Below, one piece after another: positions 7,276 to 21,019 of a stretch of DNA of 64,000 nt. Below the pieces are notes generated by a model. The model was not told where the DNA came from. It saw nothing but the letters and a program-made list of their open reading frames with translations, and did no database searches. Location: positions 62,001 through 126,000 of the forward strand of contig JAIBAE010000001.1 in assembly GCA_019695345.1 (NCBI GenBank), written 5' to 3'. The position numbers and the translations under genes are program-made. Positions within the stretch are counted from its first letter, which is position 1. Every line of letters begins with the position of its first letter. The stretch is from Bacteroidota bacterium. GTDB lineage: Bacteria; Bacteroidota; Ignavibacteria; Kapaibacteriales; NICIL-2.

Positions 7276-7373
7276 CCTTGAACTTTGGTTGTTAACATAA
7301 ATCACTGCTTGTGTATGTTCAATTTACGCGCCAAACATCAATTAACAAGTTGTACGTGTATGTTTTATTGGTA

Positions 7374-7436
7374 TTTGCTATCGCATGACCGCACCAAACT
7401 GCCTGCATAACAGGGCTATGCGTGGCGGGAAGGAAA
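7374..7436 (+). repeat. Family A structured repeat, copy a4
   Basis: Reads TTTGCTATCGCATGACCGCACC, inner stem GCCTG/CAGGGC, then GGCGGGAAGGAAAG. Here the tail end, not the GCTATCGC end, abuts the stop of the histidine kinase gene, so the usual polarity is reversed. Confidence 0.8.
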
Positions 7437-7437
7437 G

Positions 7438-8526
7438 TCAACTTATTACAATTACTTTACACTTAATATCAAAGATGTTCCATCCAATAACTGTATTGTC
7501 AGGCATTGTTGAATGACTATGATTATGATATTCTAATTCAGCATCAAACTTTTTAAGGATTCCTCTGGCATTATATAGTCCCATTCCAGTACCTTCTTTC
7601 TTGCTATGAGCCGTTGAGCGAAAACCACGAGTATAAAGATTAAGTACTTCATGTTCAGGAATAATATTTCCATAACTGTGTACAGAAACGACAACTTCGT
7701 TGTTGCTTATCTCTTTTATTATGACTTTAGGTGGTATTGTATTGGGATCTCTTGAATATTTCTGTGCGTTTTCAATAAGTAACATTAATGCAATTTCAAA
7801 AAGTTCTTTATCTCCTTGTAAATTCTTATAAGTTGTACCTTCAAAGACAATTTTAGATTTGTTCTTTTTGAAGTTGTTTAAGTATATTTTGACAATCTTA
7901 TTTACTGCTTTATGTATACTAAATACACGCTCCTTATCAACTTTGATATTGTCAATATAGTCAGGCATGTAAAAACGAATATTATCTAAAATGAACCTAG
8001 TTAGTCGTGCACCGACATATATTTTTTTTATGTTTTCGTCAGCCCTATCAAATTTACTCTCCCATTCAGATTCATCAGCATAACTAAGTAAAAGTTCTAC
8101 GCTATTTGAAATAGTAAAATTAAGATTCCTAATCTCATGTATATTCTTTGTTACCATCTCAACTGGAATATATTCCTCCAAATTTTGCAACTTTTTATCA
8201 AGCTTAATTCTATTGATAATATAGTTGCGGTCAAACTTATGAAAAGGATATTTCTTCCTATTTGTACTTGCTAGAGTTGAATTGGTTAATCCTAGTAATA
8301 ATCCTACATTACAAACATTTTGATAAATAATATAGTCAAAGCCAAGAGGGTCAGTACCAAATTGTATCTCATTGAAATTTTGAAGTAAAAGATTTTTGTA
8401 AAAATTTTCAATTAATACTTTATCCTTTTGCCTGCGGTACGCATCTGGTAATTTTAACATTTCCCCATCGTAGAGAGTAACATTATTATTTGTTATTTGA
8501 GCATAAGGGTAATTTGAGTAACTCAT
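7438..8526 (-). CDS. Cytosolic histidine kinase of a restriction-associated two-component pair
   Basis: A 362-residue soluble kinase with no membrane segment. A candidate phosphoacceptor His130 lies in NIHEIRNLNF, resembling the HE(I/V)(K/R)N H-box. The ATPase domain follows: N-box LMLLIENAQKYS (E252, N253) and G2 box EGTGMGLYNARG (312-316). The G1 box reads VHSYGNIIPEHE and lacks the usual D-x-G-x-G, so nucleotide handling may be unusual. Residues 1-120 match no sensor domain I know. It overlaps the response regulator gene by 4 bases and ends an operon headed by a nuclease-methyltransferase. The codons are AT-rich compared with housekeeping neighbours. Confidence 0.8.
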   Translation of the reverse strand: MSYSNYPYAQITNNNVTLYDGEMLKLPDAYRRQKDKVLIENFYKNLLLQNFNEIQFGTDPLGFDYIIYQNVCNVGLLLGLTNSTLASTNRKKYPFHKFDRNYIINRIKLDKKLQNLEEYIPVEMVTKNIHEIRNLNFTISNSVELLLSYADESEWESKFDRADENIKKIYVGARLTRFILDNIRFYMPDYIDNIKVDKERVFSIHKAVNKIVKIYLNNFKKNKSKIVFEGTTYKNLQGDKELFEIALMLLIENAQKYSRDPNTIPPKVIIKEISNNEVVVSVHSYGNIIPEHEVLNLYTRGFRSTAHSKKEGTGMGLYNARGILKKFDAELEYHNHSHSTMPDNTVIGWNIFDIKCKVIVIS

Positions 8527-9218
8527 GATAGCAAGTTTGATATTGATTCAATTATTGATAAATAGTTTGAGATGCTTTGTACTATTTCTTCTTTAGTCGT
8601 TATCTTCTTGACTTCTTTTAATGTTTTTTCTTTGTTATGTCCATATGTATTTACAATACTCTTAATTGCATCAATAGTATCGGCAGATGCTATTTCCTTC
8701 AAGAGATTTTTTTTCTCTACTTCAAAGTGAAATTTTGGTGAGAATGCTTTTCTAATTGCTGAATCTAGTTTTGATTTAAATTCTAAATACTCTAAATCTT
8801 TACCGATAAAATCATCTGCAAGATCAGCTATATGCTTGTATTTTGTTATAGACCATTCCGCACCCGTAAACATTATAACCACAATATGAGGACATTCTGT
8901 TTTTAGATACTTTAACACACCCCATCCTTCACTATTTTCAGATAAATTTTTACCAATACCTTGTATGTCTAATACTACCACATGATATTTCTTACGAATA
9001 AATTCATCAATCTCATTTATATCAGGTAGGTCTATAATTCCATATCCTTCTTTTTGTAATCTTCTTACATGTGATATTTCATCATCATCAACTAAGGCAA
9101 TTCGTGCTTTAAATTTTAGCATCTCAAATTCTTCTGGCGTGTATTCACGGATTGAATCATTTGATTGACGAGCAAAATAGTTTCTAATAAAGTTAAACAT
9201 TTTTATGAGTAAAAACAT
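8523..9218 (-). CDS. Response regulator (receiver domain, unrecognised C-terminus)
   Basis: A 231-residue protein. After a 36-residue N-terminal extension comes a complete receiver domain: acidic cluster LVDDDE (44-46), phosphoacceptor D84 in VVLDIQG, T118 in MFTGAE and K140 in FIGKD. The last 75 residues are helical and lysine-rich, and no DNA-binding or enzymatic domain is recognised. A second in-frame ATG at 9200 is also possible. The gene lies 31 bases after the methyltransferase and overlaps the kinase by 4 bases, so the kinase and regulator are most likely partners. The absent output domain suggests it acts by protein contact, possibly on the nuclease-methyltransferase. Confidence 0.85.
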   Translation of the reverse strand: MFLLIKMFNFIRNYFARQSNDSIREYTPEEFEMLKFKARIALVDDDEISHVRRLQKEGYGIIDLPDINEIDEFIRKKYHVVVLDIQGIGKNLSENSEGWGVLKYLKTECPHIVVIMFTGAEWSITKYKHIADLADDFIGKDLEYLEFKSKLDSAIRKAFSPKFHFEVEKKNLLKEIASADTIDAIKSIVNTYGHNKEKTLKEVKKITTKEEIVQSISNYLSIIESISNLLS

Positions 9219-9249
9219 TGTAAAGAAAATAATTCGAGTATAAATTTAG

Positions 9250-11994
9250 TTATCCAAAATATTTACAATCATCAACTAGAATACGAAATACTTCATCAAT
9301 AACTTGTTTAGAAAGTTTTGATATATCTGCAAAACGCTCATTCAAATCATGTCTGCTATTAAGCTGTGCATACTTACGAATTTGTATTAAACCACTATTA
9401 GGAGTTAAGTAATCTTGATATGAGAAATACTTGAAATATGGTTCATTCTCTAAACCAACGCCATTGATACGATTACCTTTGGTGTAATTCAAATTCCAGA
9501 AATTATATAACTCATTTATTGATTGAACGAGTTGATACGCGACATCATGCTCGGGTTTAATATGTTGTGCTAAAGTAGTTTGCCAAAATGATTCTCTGTT
9601 ATTTGTTGATAATGGATTATCCACGAATACTTCAGGAGTACCTTGGACTGGATTGTCTTTCTCAAAGGTTGTAACTACACACCTATTCTCGGCTAAGGCA
9701 AAAGCAAAACAATGTGCAAATAGATTATCCTTTAATGAATCAGGAATTTCAGGAGTCCACATGTCAAATTGATTTGCCCATATTGGATATCTCCCATTAA
9801 ATGCTTTGGTCATTGCGAACCATAGCATAGTTGCTCTTGCTGAATCTAAATCATAAGCACAATAGCTACGATTGTCAGCTGGCCCATTTAGAATCTTGGT
9901 TTGATTGATATTGATAAACGCATTATCCAATCTAAACCAAACTCTATCAGGTAAAGTTGACAACCTTCTACACGTATCTATTCTTAATCTTACCGGAGTA
10001 ATATCATCCATAAACCCGATATAAGTACCATCTGTAAAACCATGAGGAGCTTTGATTCTGTCATGGCGAGTATCTAATAAAGGAAATCCAGATACAATTC
10101 TTAATGTTAGTTCATCCTTTAGTCGATTTCTGTATATATTATAACGTGGTTGCTGAATTAACTTTCCGGTTTTATCGATTATATCAGGTAGTAATATTCT
10201 TATATCTTTGCTTGTCAGTCCAAAATCAATTCGTAGTGAATTTTTAATTAGCGGTTTTACTTTTTTATTCACTACATCTATCTTATCCATCCAATTAATA
10301 TCCAAAGACTTTGCTTTAATATGACTAAAGTCCCTAATCTGTATAGAATTTTCTCTACCTGTTTCACGGTTGTAACTCCATATTGTAAATGCTATTGGAA
10401 ACTTACCTTTTAACTCGAAAAACTCATTACTTTGTACGATAAATCCATCCTCGTATTTAAATGTAGAATCCCAATGCTTTCTGAAATTTTTATACGTAGG
10501 TCTGGGAATTAGCCAAGAAGTAGGTGTAAAGATGAGAACAATAGGTTTGTTACTACCATTCATGTGAACGAGCTCATCACTTAACCTGATTAACTGAGCG
10601 CAAAAAGCTATGTATCTTTCTTTGCCTGCATCTTCTCCGGTTAATTGTATAATCTGTGGGTCAATCTGGTAATTTGCTTCTCTGTTTGCTCGTTCATTTT
10701 CATTTTCATCGGTATTCTTGTATGGTGGATTTAATAGGAAAGCAACGGGTTTATCAAACTTCAAATTCTTTCCTAACAAGTACTGCCCAACAACTTTCAG
10801 ATAATCTTCAGCACTTAACTCGATAAAGTTTAATCCACGATCTTCTGATGTTTTGGGTATAATTGTAAAACCAACAGAAACATGGTCAGGGTCATCACTC
10901 ATTCGTCTTTCAATAACCTTTAACAAATCAGGGTTTAATTCAGAAACAATCTTATGCTTTATATGTCCTCTCCAACTTGTAACTAAATTTCCGGAACCTC
11001 CGGCAGGGTCTAGAACAATGTAATTATCTGCTAATTTTTTTTCATAATATTCTCTAACGAACCACATTGCAAATTTGCTAAGGTTGATATCCGTGAAAAA
11101 AATGCCATGTTGTTTAACATAATCTCTATCAAGTTCTGCAATTAAAGCATCAAACTTTGAGAAGTAATAGTCTATAGAAAAACCTAACAAAGGATTAGAG
11201 TAAACGTAATGCGACTCTATAAAATTTCTGAGTTCTTCATAGTCCTTATATGACAATGGGATTAGTCCACTATGCTTTCTTGCAGCAGGGCTCATTATAC
11301 TTACCTTACCATTCTCATATTCACTTAATACAGCCGACTGATCCCAAACATGTATGATGTTATAAAAAAAGTGTATTGAGTCAATCGGTTTTGAAAAGAA
11401 TTTTCTAAGAAAACCTACTTTCCTAATAAAATTATCTTTGTTGATTTGTTGCCTTACTGCATCTAAGTGTTGTAGTCTTTCATGAAATTCTAAAAGATAA
11501 GGTTGTAGTCCGGTATCTATGTCTTCGGTGAACATACTTTCCTTAAATGTTACACCCGCAATAATGTAACCTGTCTTGAGTATTTCCTTATCACGATTAT
11601 TTCTCTTGCATTTTGAAGCATTGACTTTACCTGCTTCACTTGCACTAATTGTATGGGCAGTATTATTTGCTAAGTCAGTTACATATTCGGGTAAGCGAGA
11701 GACTTGCCAAATACCTGCAAAGTGTCTTGCAAGTACAACTACTGTAGTAAAAGTTAATCCCTTCTTTTGATAGTGCAAAGCTTGAAACAACCCTTCAAGC
11801 CATTGAACATGTTCTGTCTTTAGTTCAATGATTAACTTGCCTTCTACATAGCCATCCGCATTTGCAGCATCAGATTGTTTCTTAAAGGATTTTCCAAACA
11901 GATTTCGGAAATAATTTAGAGCGTAGTCATCTCGAGAATTTTCGTTTCCTGTGCCAATTAAGTACTGCTTTAATTGTTGAAGTTCTTTAGACAT
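9250..11994 (-). CDS. Type IIG-like nuclease / N6-adenine DNA methyltransferase
   Basis: A 914-residue fusion. Residues 40-60 carry a PD-(D/E)xK-like nuclease motif (D47, then LIIELKTE with E57 and K59). A helical region follows, then an N6-adenine methyltransferase with motif I LDPAGGSGNL (329-336) and motif IV LLNPPYKN (422-425). The remainder to the C-terminus is a likely target-recognition domain. This layout is that of single-chain type IIG (Eco57I-like) restriction enzymes, which both cut and methylate. BREX PglX is an alternative but is normally longer and lacks the nuclease. Followed by a response regulator and a histidine kinase on the same strand. The AT-rich composition suggests acquisition by transfer. 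Confidence 0.87.
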   Translation of the reverse strand: MSKELQQLKQYLIGTGNENSRDDYALNYFRNLFGKSFKKQSDAANADGYVEGKLIIELKTEHVQWLEGLFQALHYQKKGLTFTTVVVLARHFAGIWQVSRLPEYVTDLANNTAHTISASEAGKVNASKCKRNNRDKEILKTGYIIAGVTFKESMFTEDIDTGLQPYLLEFHERLQHLDAVRQQINKDNFIRKVGFLRKFFSKPIDSIHFFYNIIHVWDQSAVLSEYENGKVSIMSPAARKHSGLIPLSYKDYEELRNFIESHYVYSNPLLGFSIDYYFSKFDALIAELDRDYVKQHGIFFTDINLSKFAMWFVREYYEKKLADNYIVLDPAGGSGNLVTSWRGHIKHKIVSELNPDLLKVIERRMSDDPDHVSVGFTIIPKTSEDRGLNFIELSAEDYLKVVGQYLLGKNLKFDKPVAFLLNPPYKNTDENENERANREANYQIDPQIIQLTGEDAGKERYIAFCAQLIRLSDELVHMNGSNKPIVLIFTPTSWLIPRPTYKNFRKHWDSTFKYEDGFIVQSNEFFELKGKFPIAFTIWSYNRETGRENSIQIRDFSHIKAKSLDINWMDKIDVVNKKVKPLIKNSLRIDFGLTSKDIRILLPDIIDKTGKLIQQPRYNIYRNRLKDELTLRIVSGFPLLDTRHDRIKAPHGFTDGTYIGFMDDITPVRLRIDTCRRLSTLPDRVWFRLDNAFININQTKILNGPADNRSYCAYDLDSARATMLWFAMTKAFNGRYPIWANQFDMWTPEIPDSLKDNLFAHCFAFALAENRCVVTTFEKDNPVQGTPEVFVDNPLSTNNRESFWQTTLAQHIKPEHDVAYQLVQSINELYNFWNLNYTKGNRINGVGLENEPYFKYFSYQDYLTPNSGLIQIRKYAQLNSRHDLNERFADISKLSKQVIDEVFRILVDDCKYFG

Positions 11995-12112
11995 GCGTTA
12001 TCTATACTCCGCAAGGTATTATGTATTAGATATTTAGTTGGATGTAAAAATAAGAAAGACTTTCTGGAATTAGTTTGTTTTTAATTTCAAAAAAGTTGCA
12101 TGTGAATAACTT

Positions 12113-12187
12113 CCCCGCGCCGCTGTACCGTTCGGCTCCGCCCGGGTGACGGCGCAGTATGGTGTGCTTCGGCAGAGGAGGGAACCA
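12113..12187 (-). repeat. Family B GC-rich hairpin repeat, copy b3
   Basis: Runs from CCCCGCGCCGCTGTACCG to GTGCTTCGGCAGAGGAGGG. It shares a long identical core with b2, 6 kb away. It lies upstream of the methyltransferase operon, in the 267-base gap before the SRPBCC gene. Confidence 0.8.
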
Positions 12188-12261
12188 TTATAATAATTCT
12201 GCTGTGGAACTAATTTTAGTTACCGTTGGTTATTGGAGTCAGTTTACACAGTACGGAGATT

Positions 12262-12726
12262 ATGATGTCGTTTCATGTTTTACAAAAAACACAGAAGCTA
12301 AAAGTTACGCTTGATGAAGCATGGGAGTTTTTTTCATCGCCTAAGAATCTTGCTACTATTACACCCGATTACATGAATTTTGTAGTTACCTGCGAGGTTG
12401 CTGAGAAGGTGTATCCGGGACAGATTATAACCTATACAGTCTCGCCAGTGTTAGGGATTCCGCTAACATGGATGACGGAGATTACTCACGTTGAACACCG
12501 CCGTATGTTTGTTGATGAACAACGGATAGGGCCGTATTCGCTGTGGCATCACCAACACATTTTTACTGAGATTGACGGTGGCGTTGAAACCACTGATATT
12601 GTACATTATGCCCTGCCTATGGGTTTCCTTGGTGATATGGTTCATGCACTAATGGTGCGTAAACAATTAGAAGGCATTTTTGATTATAGAAGGAATGTTC
12701 TGAACAAGATGTTTGGGGAATTGTAG
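12262..12726 (+). CDS. SRPBCC-family (START-like) ligand-binding protein
   Basis: A 154-residue protein starting MMSFHVLQKTQ. ATG at 12262 follows ACGGAG at a good distance; the frame is open back to 12226. The sequence matches the polyketide cyclase/SRPBCC helix-grip fold (EAWEFFSSPKNLATITPDYMN, then MTEITHVE and DEQRIGPYSLWHHQH). Members bind hydrophobic ligands; the ligand here is unknown. No signal peptide. It converges with the outer-membrane gene that ends 3 bases away on the other strand. Confidence 0.8.
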   Translation: MMSFHVLQKTQKLKVTLDEAWEFFSSPKNLATITPDYMNFVVTCEVAEKVYPGQIITYTVSPVLGIPLTWMTEITHVEHRRMFVDEQRIGPYSLWHHQHIFTEIDGGVETTDIVHYALPMGFLGDMVHALMVRKQLEGIFDYRRNVLNKMFGEL

Positions 12727-19851: not shown

Positions 19852-20868
19852 TTACATCTCGTTTTCTTGTAATAGTCTGATGAAGTCTTGTTTATCGGGA
19901 AGAACTGTTTTGTATTTGCTTGCAAAGATTTGATTGTTGTTGGTTGGTAGTGTTATTTCTACAAGCGATTCATTTTTATCTTTACACAGGATTATTCCTA
20001 TGGTGTTGTTTTCTTCGGGGAGTTTAACAAAACGGTCGTGATAGTTTACATACATCTGCATTTGTCCTAAATCTTGGTGTGTAAGTTTTCCAATCTTTAA
20101 ATCGATAAGTACAAAACATTGCAGCAAACGGTTGTAAAACACTAAGTCTATCTTAAAGTGTTGTTCATCGAATGTGATTCGTACTTGCCTGCCACAAAAT
20201 GTAAACCCTTTTCCCAGCTCTAACATAAAATGCTCGAGTTTTGAAATGATTGCTTCTTCTAATTCAAATTCGGAATATTTATGGAGTTCGGGTAAATCAA
20301 GAAACTCAAGTATATAGGGGTCTTTTAAAATGTCCGTAGGTTTCTCTATGTGCTGCCCTTGTTTTGATAATTGTTGAACAGCATCTTTATCGCGGCTTAA
20401 TACTAAACGCTCGTATAATGCGGAATCAAACTGACGCTGTAATTCCCTAAGCGACCATCTGTTCGTTTCAGATTCTATTTCGTAGAAACTTCGCTCGTCC
20501 GGATTTTCTATTCTCATTAACAGTAAATAGTGCGACCATGAAAGCGTAAATCTTTTTTCCTTCAATTCAGCAGACACTGTCTGCTGAATTGAATACGTTT
20601 GATAAAAGGCACGCATTTGGCGTAAATTGACAACAGAGAAACCTCTGCCAAAACTCTGACTTAACTGTTGAGAAAGAAATTCCAATACTTGCTTCCCATA
20701 TTCCGCACGGTGCTTGCCTTGTTGCTCATCCTCAACTATCATTCTGCCAATTTCGTAATATGTGTACACCATAGTGCTGTTAACAGAACGAACGATATTC
20801 TGCTTAGAGTCTAGAAGTAGCTCGTGTATTTTTTGATAGAGAGATTGATGCGCAGTTGGTTTTTCCAT
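19852..20868 (-). CDS. YhcG/DUF1016 family PD-(D/E)xK nuclease
   Basis: A 338-residue protein. The start at 20868 (MEKPTAHQSLYQKIHELL) gives the usual family N-terminus; the frame is open to 20985 but the extra part looks non-coding and runs towards repeat a6. The N-terminal DUF1016 region (MVYTYYEIGRMIVEDEQ, FGRGFSVVNLRQMR) is followed by the C-terminal nuclease core with FKIDLVFYN (D241) and VLIDLKIGK (D256, K258). Members are often found near restriction or mobile genes, and their biological role is poorly known. Here the gene is bracketed by same-orientation family A repeats a5 and a6. Confidence 0.9.
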   Translation of the reverse strand: MEKPTAHQSLYQKIHELLLDSKQNIVRSVNSTMVYTYYEIGRMIVEDEQQGKHRAEYGKQVLEFLSQQLSQSFGRGFSVVNLRQMRAFYQTYSIQQTVSAELKEKRFTLSWSHYLLLMRIENPDERSFYEIESETNRWSLRELQRQFDSALYERLVLSRDKDAVQQLSKQGQHIEKPTDILKDPYILEFLDLPELHKYSEFELEEAIISKLEHFMLELGKGFTFCGRQVRITFDEQHFKIDLVFYNRLLQCFVLIDLKIGKLTHQDLGQMQMYVNYHDRFVKLPEENNTIGIILCKDKNESLVEITLPTNNNQIFASKYKTVLPDKQDFIRLLQENEM

Positions 20869-20956
20869 GATTGCATTGTAACTACATGATACTATTGCAA
20901 GGAAATTAGCAAAACATTTTACAACCACGAACAAGATTGAAATTATAGTACAAATT

Positions 20957-21019
20957 TCCTTCCCGCAAAAACAAATGCCCTGCATTACTGCAAGGCGCGG
21001 TGCGGTCGGGCGATAGCGT
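20957..21019 (-). repeat. Family A structured repeat, copy a6
   Basis: The minus strand reads CTACGCTATCGCCCGACCGC to TTTGCGGGAAGGAAA. The inner stem TGCA/TGCA and GCC/GGGC matches a5 and a7. It begins 22 bases after the stop of the lipoprotein gene at 21042. Confidence 0.88.

Follow-up and report, generated by a model that had tools for sequence, protein, structure and literature searches.

Three adjacent genes in a 64,000-nucleotide stretch of a Bacteroidota genome (the whole stretch analysed, hereafter the window) on balance appear to be two stacked, exchangeable phage-defence modules in one predicted operon: a single-chain restriction-modification enzyme, P0001, and behind it a receiver–kinase pair, P0002 and P0003 (Table 1). 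We favour this reading because relatives of the genes show that the enzyme and the pair normally live apart. The first module would be a self-sufficient enzyme, methylating sites in the host and cutting DNA that lacks the modification. The second would be a two-gene phosphorelay related to the defence candidate PDC-M43, in which a soluble kinase senses infection or damage and phosphorylates its receiver; the receiver would itself give the output, probably at the membrane via its terminal hydrophobic helix and in a form such as growth arrest. The pair would then act as a backup, a role that Pycsar or SIR2 genes seem to have behind homologues of P0001.

A three-gene block of foreign base composition

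A preliminary description of this DNA reported three genes on one strand, and its open reading frames, spacing and motifs were all re-found: P0001 and P0002 are separated by 31 bp, and P0002 and P0003 share a 4-bp ATGA overlap in which the start of the kinase gene overlaps the stop of the receiver gene, an arrangement from which co-transcription would be expected. Chance open reading frames are excluded for all three, since each has full-length homologues with conserved catalytic residues. The block is AT-rich relative to its flanks and its third codon positions deviate likewise (GC3 20–26%, against 33–47% in the other genes of the window); because of this low GC and GC3, the block was probably acquired horizontally. 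A clean empty site for it did not emerge: wecB is conserved in the family, and the gene on the opposite side of the block is no neighbour of wecB there.

Table 1. Features of the block in the window, with domain layouts of the encoded proteins
Feature	Position	Strand	Length	Description
P0001, restriction-modification enzyme gene	9250-11994	minus	914 aa	N-terminal PD-(D/E)xK-type nuclease, then N6-adenine methyltransferase, then C-terminal region
P0002, receiver gene	8523-9218	minus	231 aa	PDC-M43A-like; REC at about residues 39-158, then a helical extension to the C-terminus, its last helix amphipathic
P0003, cytosolic histidine kinase gene	7438-8526	minus	362 aa	PDC-M43B-like; N-terminal part, then H-box (H130-E-I-R), then HATPase_c, its G1 box degenerate
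AT-rich, probably acquired block	7438-11994			29-34% GC vs 43-46% in flanking genes

The block is flanked by two short intergenic repeats of different kinds, both dispersed in the genome (window positions 12114-12192 and 7368-7400). Each, used as a query, was found at no fewer than about 40 genomic places, with more copies likely; they are REP-like, yet their single strands fold no better than shuffled sequences. Also near the block are a small toxin–antitoxin-like pair whose toxin has, by eye, a PIN-type look (642-1296) and a gene for a YhcG/DUF1016 PDDEXK nuclease (19852-20985).

P0001 belongs to a widespread single-chain enzyme family

The fusion of a nuclease to an N6-adenine methyltransferase, proposed in the preliminary description, is borne out by an alignment of 39 sequences: the nuclease residues D47, E57, K59 and Q71 are invariant, and the methyltransferase motifs DPAGGSGN and NPPY show little or no variation. 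Nuclease and methyltransferase thus share one polypeptide, as in type IIG enzymes, which work singly with a target-recognition region of their own and no partner subunit, methylate adenine and cleave at a set distance from their site. In P0001, target recognition is probably housed in the C-terminal region. Matches of P0001 to family libraries are weak, generic and sub-threshold, and sequence searches against solved structures (PDB) gave no match, including with a profile of the 39 sequences. An AlphaFold2 model built from the same 39 sequences (mean pLDDT 84) ranks DrdV first among fold matches and the type ISP enzyme LlaGI second, followed by a type I modification subunit and then the type IIL enzyme MmeI. 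The TM-scores are low (0.3 or less), so these matches support the fold of the parts and do not confirm a full domain-by-domain arrangement. Because the model matches DrdV, LlaGI and MmeI, type IIG/IIL-like is the best assignment for P0001. It shares with these enzymes a single chain with an N-terminal nuclease, an N6-adenine methyltransferase and a C-terminal region, but differs in having no detectable sequence match to any solved structure, even by the 39-sequence profile. Its domains predict both cutting and methylating activities.

Homologues are dispersed. Within the organism's own class there are three full-length copies at 49–53% identity, plus broken ones. Across 84,980 species scanned, 58 loci had homologues at about 37–55% identity, in Bacteroidota, Spirochaetes, WOR-3, Coatesbacteria, Verrucomicrobia, Zixibacteria, Syntrophaceae and others. 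An alignment scan of IMG/VR added one prophage copy, giving 59 loci in all, and single-protein scans of IMG/VR with P0001 and P0003 found no relatives. No homologue of P0001 was found on the plasmids searched.

The slot behind the enzyme is exchangeable

The preliminary description inferred phosphorelay control of a restriction enzyme, possibly switched on during infection. Relatives of the enzyme speak against a dedicated three-gene system of this kind: BLAST and profile searches placed the receiver–kinase pair beside none of the 59 enzyme homologues, 37 of which could be read for 2.5 kb or more downstream. A receiver and kinase near one homologue (L074) were rejected, lying on the opposite strand, 4.5 kb away, and being of an ordinary chromosomal type.

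What follows the enzyme instead varies. A same-strand open reading frame begins within 60 bp downstream in 19 of the 42 readable loci (some of these frames are spurious), and many homologues have no close downstream gene. One occupant follows a Syntrophaceae homologue, where a complete Pycsar system (PycTIR, 1e-90, then PycC, 1.6e-100) begins 27 bp on (L044, 1654-6175). Elsewhere the enzyme is followed by a ThsA-like SIR2 protein at 29 bp (L075), by Mrr endonucleases at 3 and 6 bp (L056 and L080), by a resolvase and then a Roc-COR protein (L086), or by coiled-coil membrane proteins (L052 and L063). The slot behind the enzyme is therefore exchangeable, and several of its occupants are known defence genes.

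A comparable arrangement has been described in type I restriction operons that have a second system embedded in them, such as DarTG2 in the EPEC RRDM island (PMC12255303). A restriction operon there carries an independent second defence module, as our block would; the block differs in that a type IIG-like enzyme encoded by one gene is the carrier and its rider pair lies downstream rather than inside.

The receiver–kinase pair is a divergent relative of PDC-M43

P0002 contains all phosphorylation residues (D44/D45, D84, T118 and K140), although its REC domain matches Pfam below the cut-off, and no DNA-binding domain was recognised in it. P0003 has an above-threshold HATPase_c match (4e-9), H130 within HEIR, the N-box residue N253 and a G2 box with its G-x-G-x-G. 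This agrees with the receiver and cytosolic kinase described before, with one qualification: the G1 box reads SYG, not DxG or NxG, which makes the ATP site atypical. Against 391 genomes of the organism's own class, P0003 gave general kinase matches only.

The two proteins match the PADLOC models PDC-M43A (P0002, 4.1e-14) and PDC-M43B (P0003, 8.1e-15), both with modest scores. The preliminary description knew of no named defence system of this composition; the pair was in fact already modelled, and the suggested link to defence holds. PDCs are candidates from guilt-by-embedding and mostly await validation (PMC12988326), and our literature search found no paper naming PDC-M43 or reporting defence activity for it. 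Like PDC-M43A/B, the window pair consists of a receiver gene and then an overlapping kinase gene. It forms a divergent branch, at about 51–53 bits against 170–236 bits for the best receivers found, and P0003 carries HEIR whereas the kinases beside those receivers carry an HNL-type H-box. At 1e-10 the receiver profile (A5) mostly matched ordinary response regulators, and only high scores were used.

We read 11 other loci of the pair (L009, L017, L018, L019, L020, L127, L159, L187, L188, L189 and L190). In all of them the receiver gene precedes the kinase gene, with a gap of −11 to +113 bp, so the receiver-first adjacency of PDC-M43 is seen in the window and in 11 further loci. A P0001-like gene is absent from all 11, and their neighbours are unrelated genes or none, which again counts against a dedicated three-gene system. 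Several pairs occur on their own, on chromosomes or on plasmids; three of these are carried by conjugative plasmids, from Phaeobacter, Shewanella (L189) and E. coli (L190). For the E. coli plasmid pair, blastn against 5,426 complete E. coli genomes found no match. A 6,175 bp plasmid of Kosakonia cowanii (NZ_CP069322.1) matches both pair genes near the ends of the record, with 44–66% identity to the Shewanella and E. coli copies. In a human-gut contig (L127, 5608-7643) the pair has an rfbC-like gene on one side and an incomplete repeat of that gene's start on the other, as if it had been inserted with a duplication. A phage carrying a response regulator and a kinase (L158) was set aside as an ordinary two-component pair.

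Some neighbourhoods contain other nucleases. The pair lies 43 bp behind the gene of an unrelated type II restriction enzyme (2.5e-44), in company with two methyltransferase genes (L187), and elsewhere it overlaps an upstream NYN nuclease gene and precedes PDC-M41 (L188). The latter locus (8578-12505) reads as NYN nuclease, receiver, kinase and then PDC-M41A/B (a TcmP-like protein and DUF5131) in series. With the window, a nuclease gene is directly upstream of the pair in three of 12 loci, a small and non-random sample. This exceeds what would be expected if the pair were unrelated to nucleases, and to that extent counts against the two-module reading. It also keeps control of a neighbouring nuclease under consideration: an infection-sensing kinase would phosphorylate the receiver, which would bind the restriction enzyme, or any neighbouring nuclease, and switch it on. 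The tight operon spacing fits such control, as does a receiver without a recognised output domain, whose output would have to come from a partner protein. We nevertheless regard it as unlikely, since all 59 enzyme homologues lack the pair, the nucleases next to the pair are mutually unrelated (a specific docking site is thus improbable) and the pair also stands alone. Of the preliminary interpretation, the domain assignments and the defence link stand, and phosphorelay control as a dedicated, conserved three-gene system falls on both of the checks that the description itself had proposed; a looser nuclease link survives in L187 and L188.

The pair could also be an ordinary two-component regulator that by chance shares an acquired block with the enzyme and has no role in defence. 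Three loci whose chromosomal surroundings are ordinary and free of defence genes (L018, whose upstream side is truncated by a contig end, L019 and L159) are what this would predict. The pair nevertheless lacks a recognised DNA-binding output domain, is listed by PADLOC as a defence candidate and is found repeatedly on plasmids and in the vicinity of integrases, restriction genes and other defence candidates (in L017 it is flanked by integrase genes, with a type I restriction operon at a distance of about 1 kb), and we consider an ordinary regulator without a role in defence quite improbable.

Detocs offers a further comparison, made by description. It consists of a kinase, a buffering protein and a response regulator (PMC11728103) and relies on ATP nucleosidases (PMC9966839). 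In Detocs, as in the block, kinase and receiver share an operon with a potentially toxic enzyme, and a weak nucleoside deoxyribosyltransferase-like gene lies 163 bp downstream of one pair (L020), so the block could be imagined as a Detocs-like three-gene system with its nucleosidase replaced by a nuclease–methyltransferase effector. The block, however, has a single receiver gene and no separate buffering protein beside an effector response regulator. It also contains no nucleosidase, P0002 being REC plus helices only, with no effector fused to it. P0001 furthermore brings a self-protecting methyltransferase of its own and is also found independently. A Detocs-like system is accordingly very improbable here.

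A possible membrane pattern among the receivers

Of 12 receivers compared, five (L187, L016, L010, L189 and L190) bear an N-terminal transmembrane-like segment and lack a hydrophobic helix at the C-terminus; the remaining seven have a hydrophobic or amphipathic helix at that end instead. Three receivers of the N-terminal-segment group stop right after REC. No DNA-binding domain was recognised in the receivers that were scanned against Pfam, and all 12 appear by eye too short outside REC to accommodate one. The same hydrophobicity calculation found no clear membrane segment in the kinases. This pattern in twelve sequences suggests a soluble kinase acting on a membrane-held receiver.

Carried further, the pair might be a complete two-gene immune phosphorelay whose receiver is itself the membrane-acting effector, travelling on plasmids and docking behind restriction enzymes as a backup triggered when restriction fails. 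If true, a soluble sensor kinase with a membrane-tethered receiver would be the reverse of ordinary two-component systems. We put this forward tentatively and think it doubtful in its full form. Several features also weigh against the two-module reading in general: the C-terminal helix of P0002 is weakly hydrophobic (Kyte-Doolittle 0.99), the C-terminus of its model has low confidence (pLDDT 50–60), the G1 box of the kinase is atypical, and we found no reported defence activity for PDC-M43.

Discussion

The kinds of component involved here are already known or listed as candidates. The novelty lies in the divergent pair, in its association with P0001 and in the variability of the slot that follows an uncharacterised enzyme family. 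That family is a widespread one of single-chain restriction enzymes whose downstream slot takes varied known or candidate defence modules; because it accepts different modules, the slot is a place to seek new ones. Plasmid-borne two-gene versions make the pair naturally portable and testable in E. coli. If it is true that a PDC-M43-type receiver acts directly at the membrane, immune phosphorelay signalling would reach beyond Detocs.
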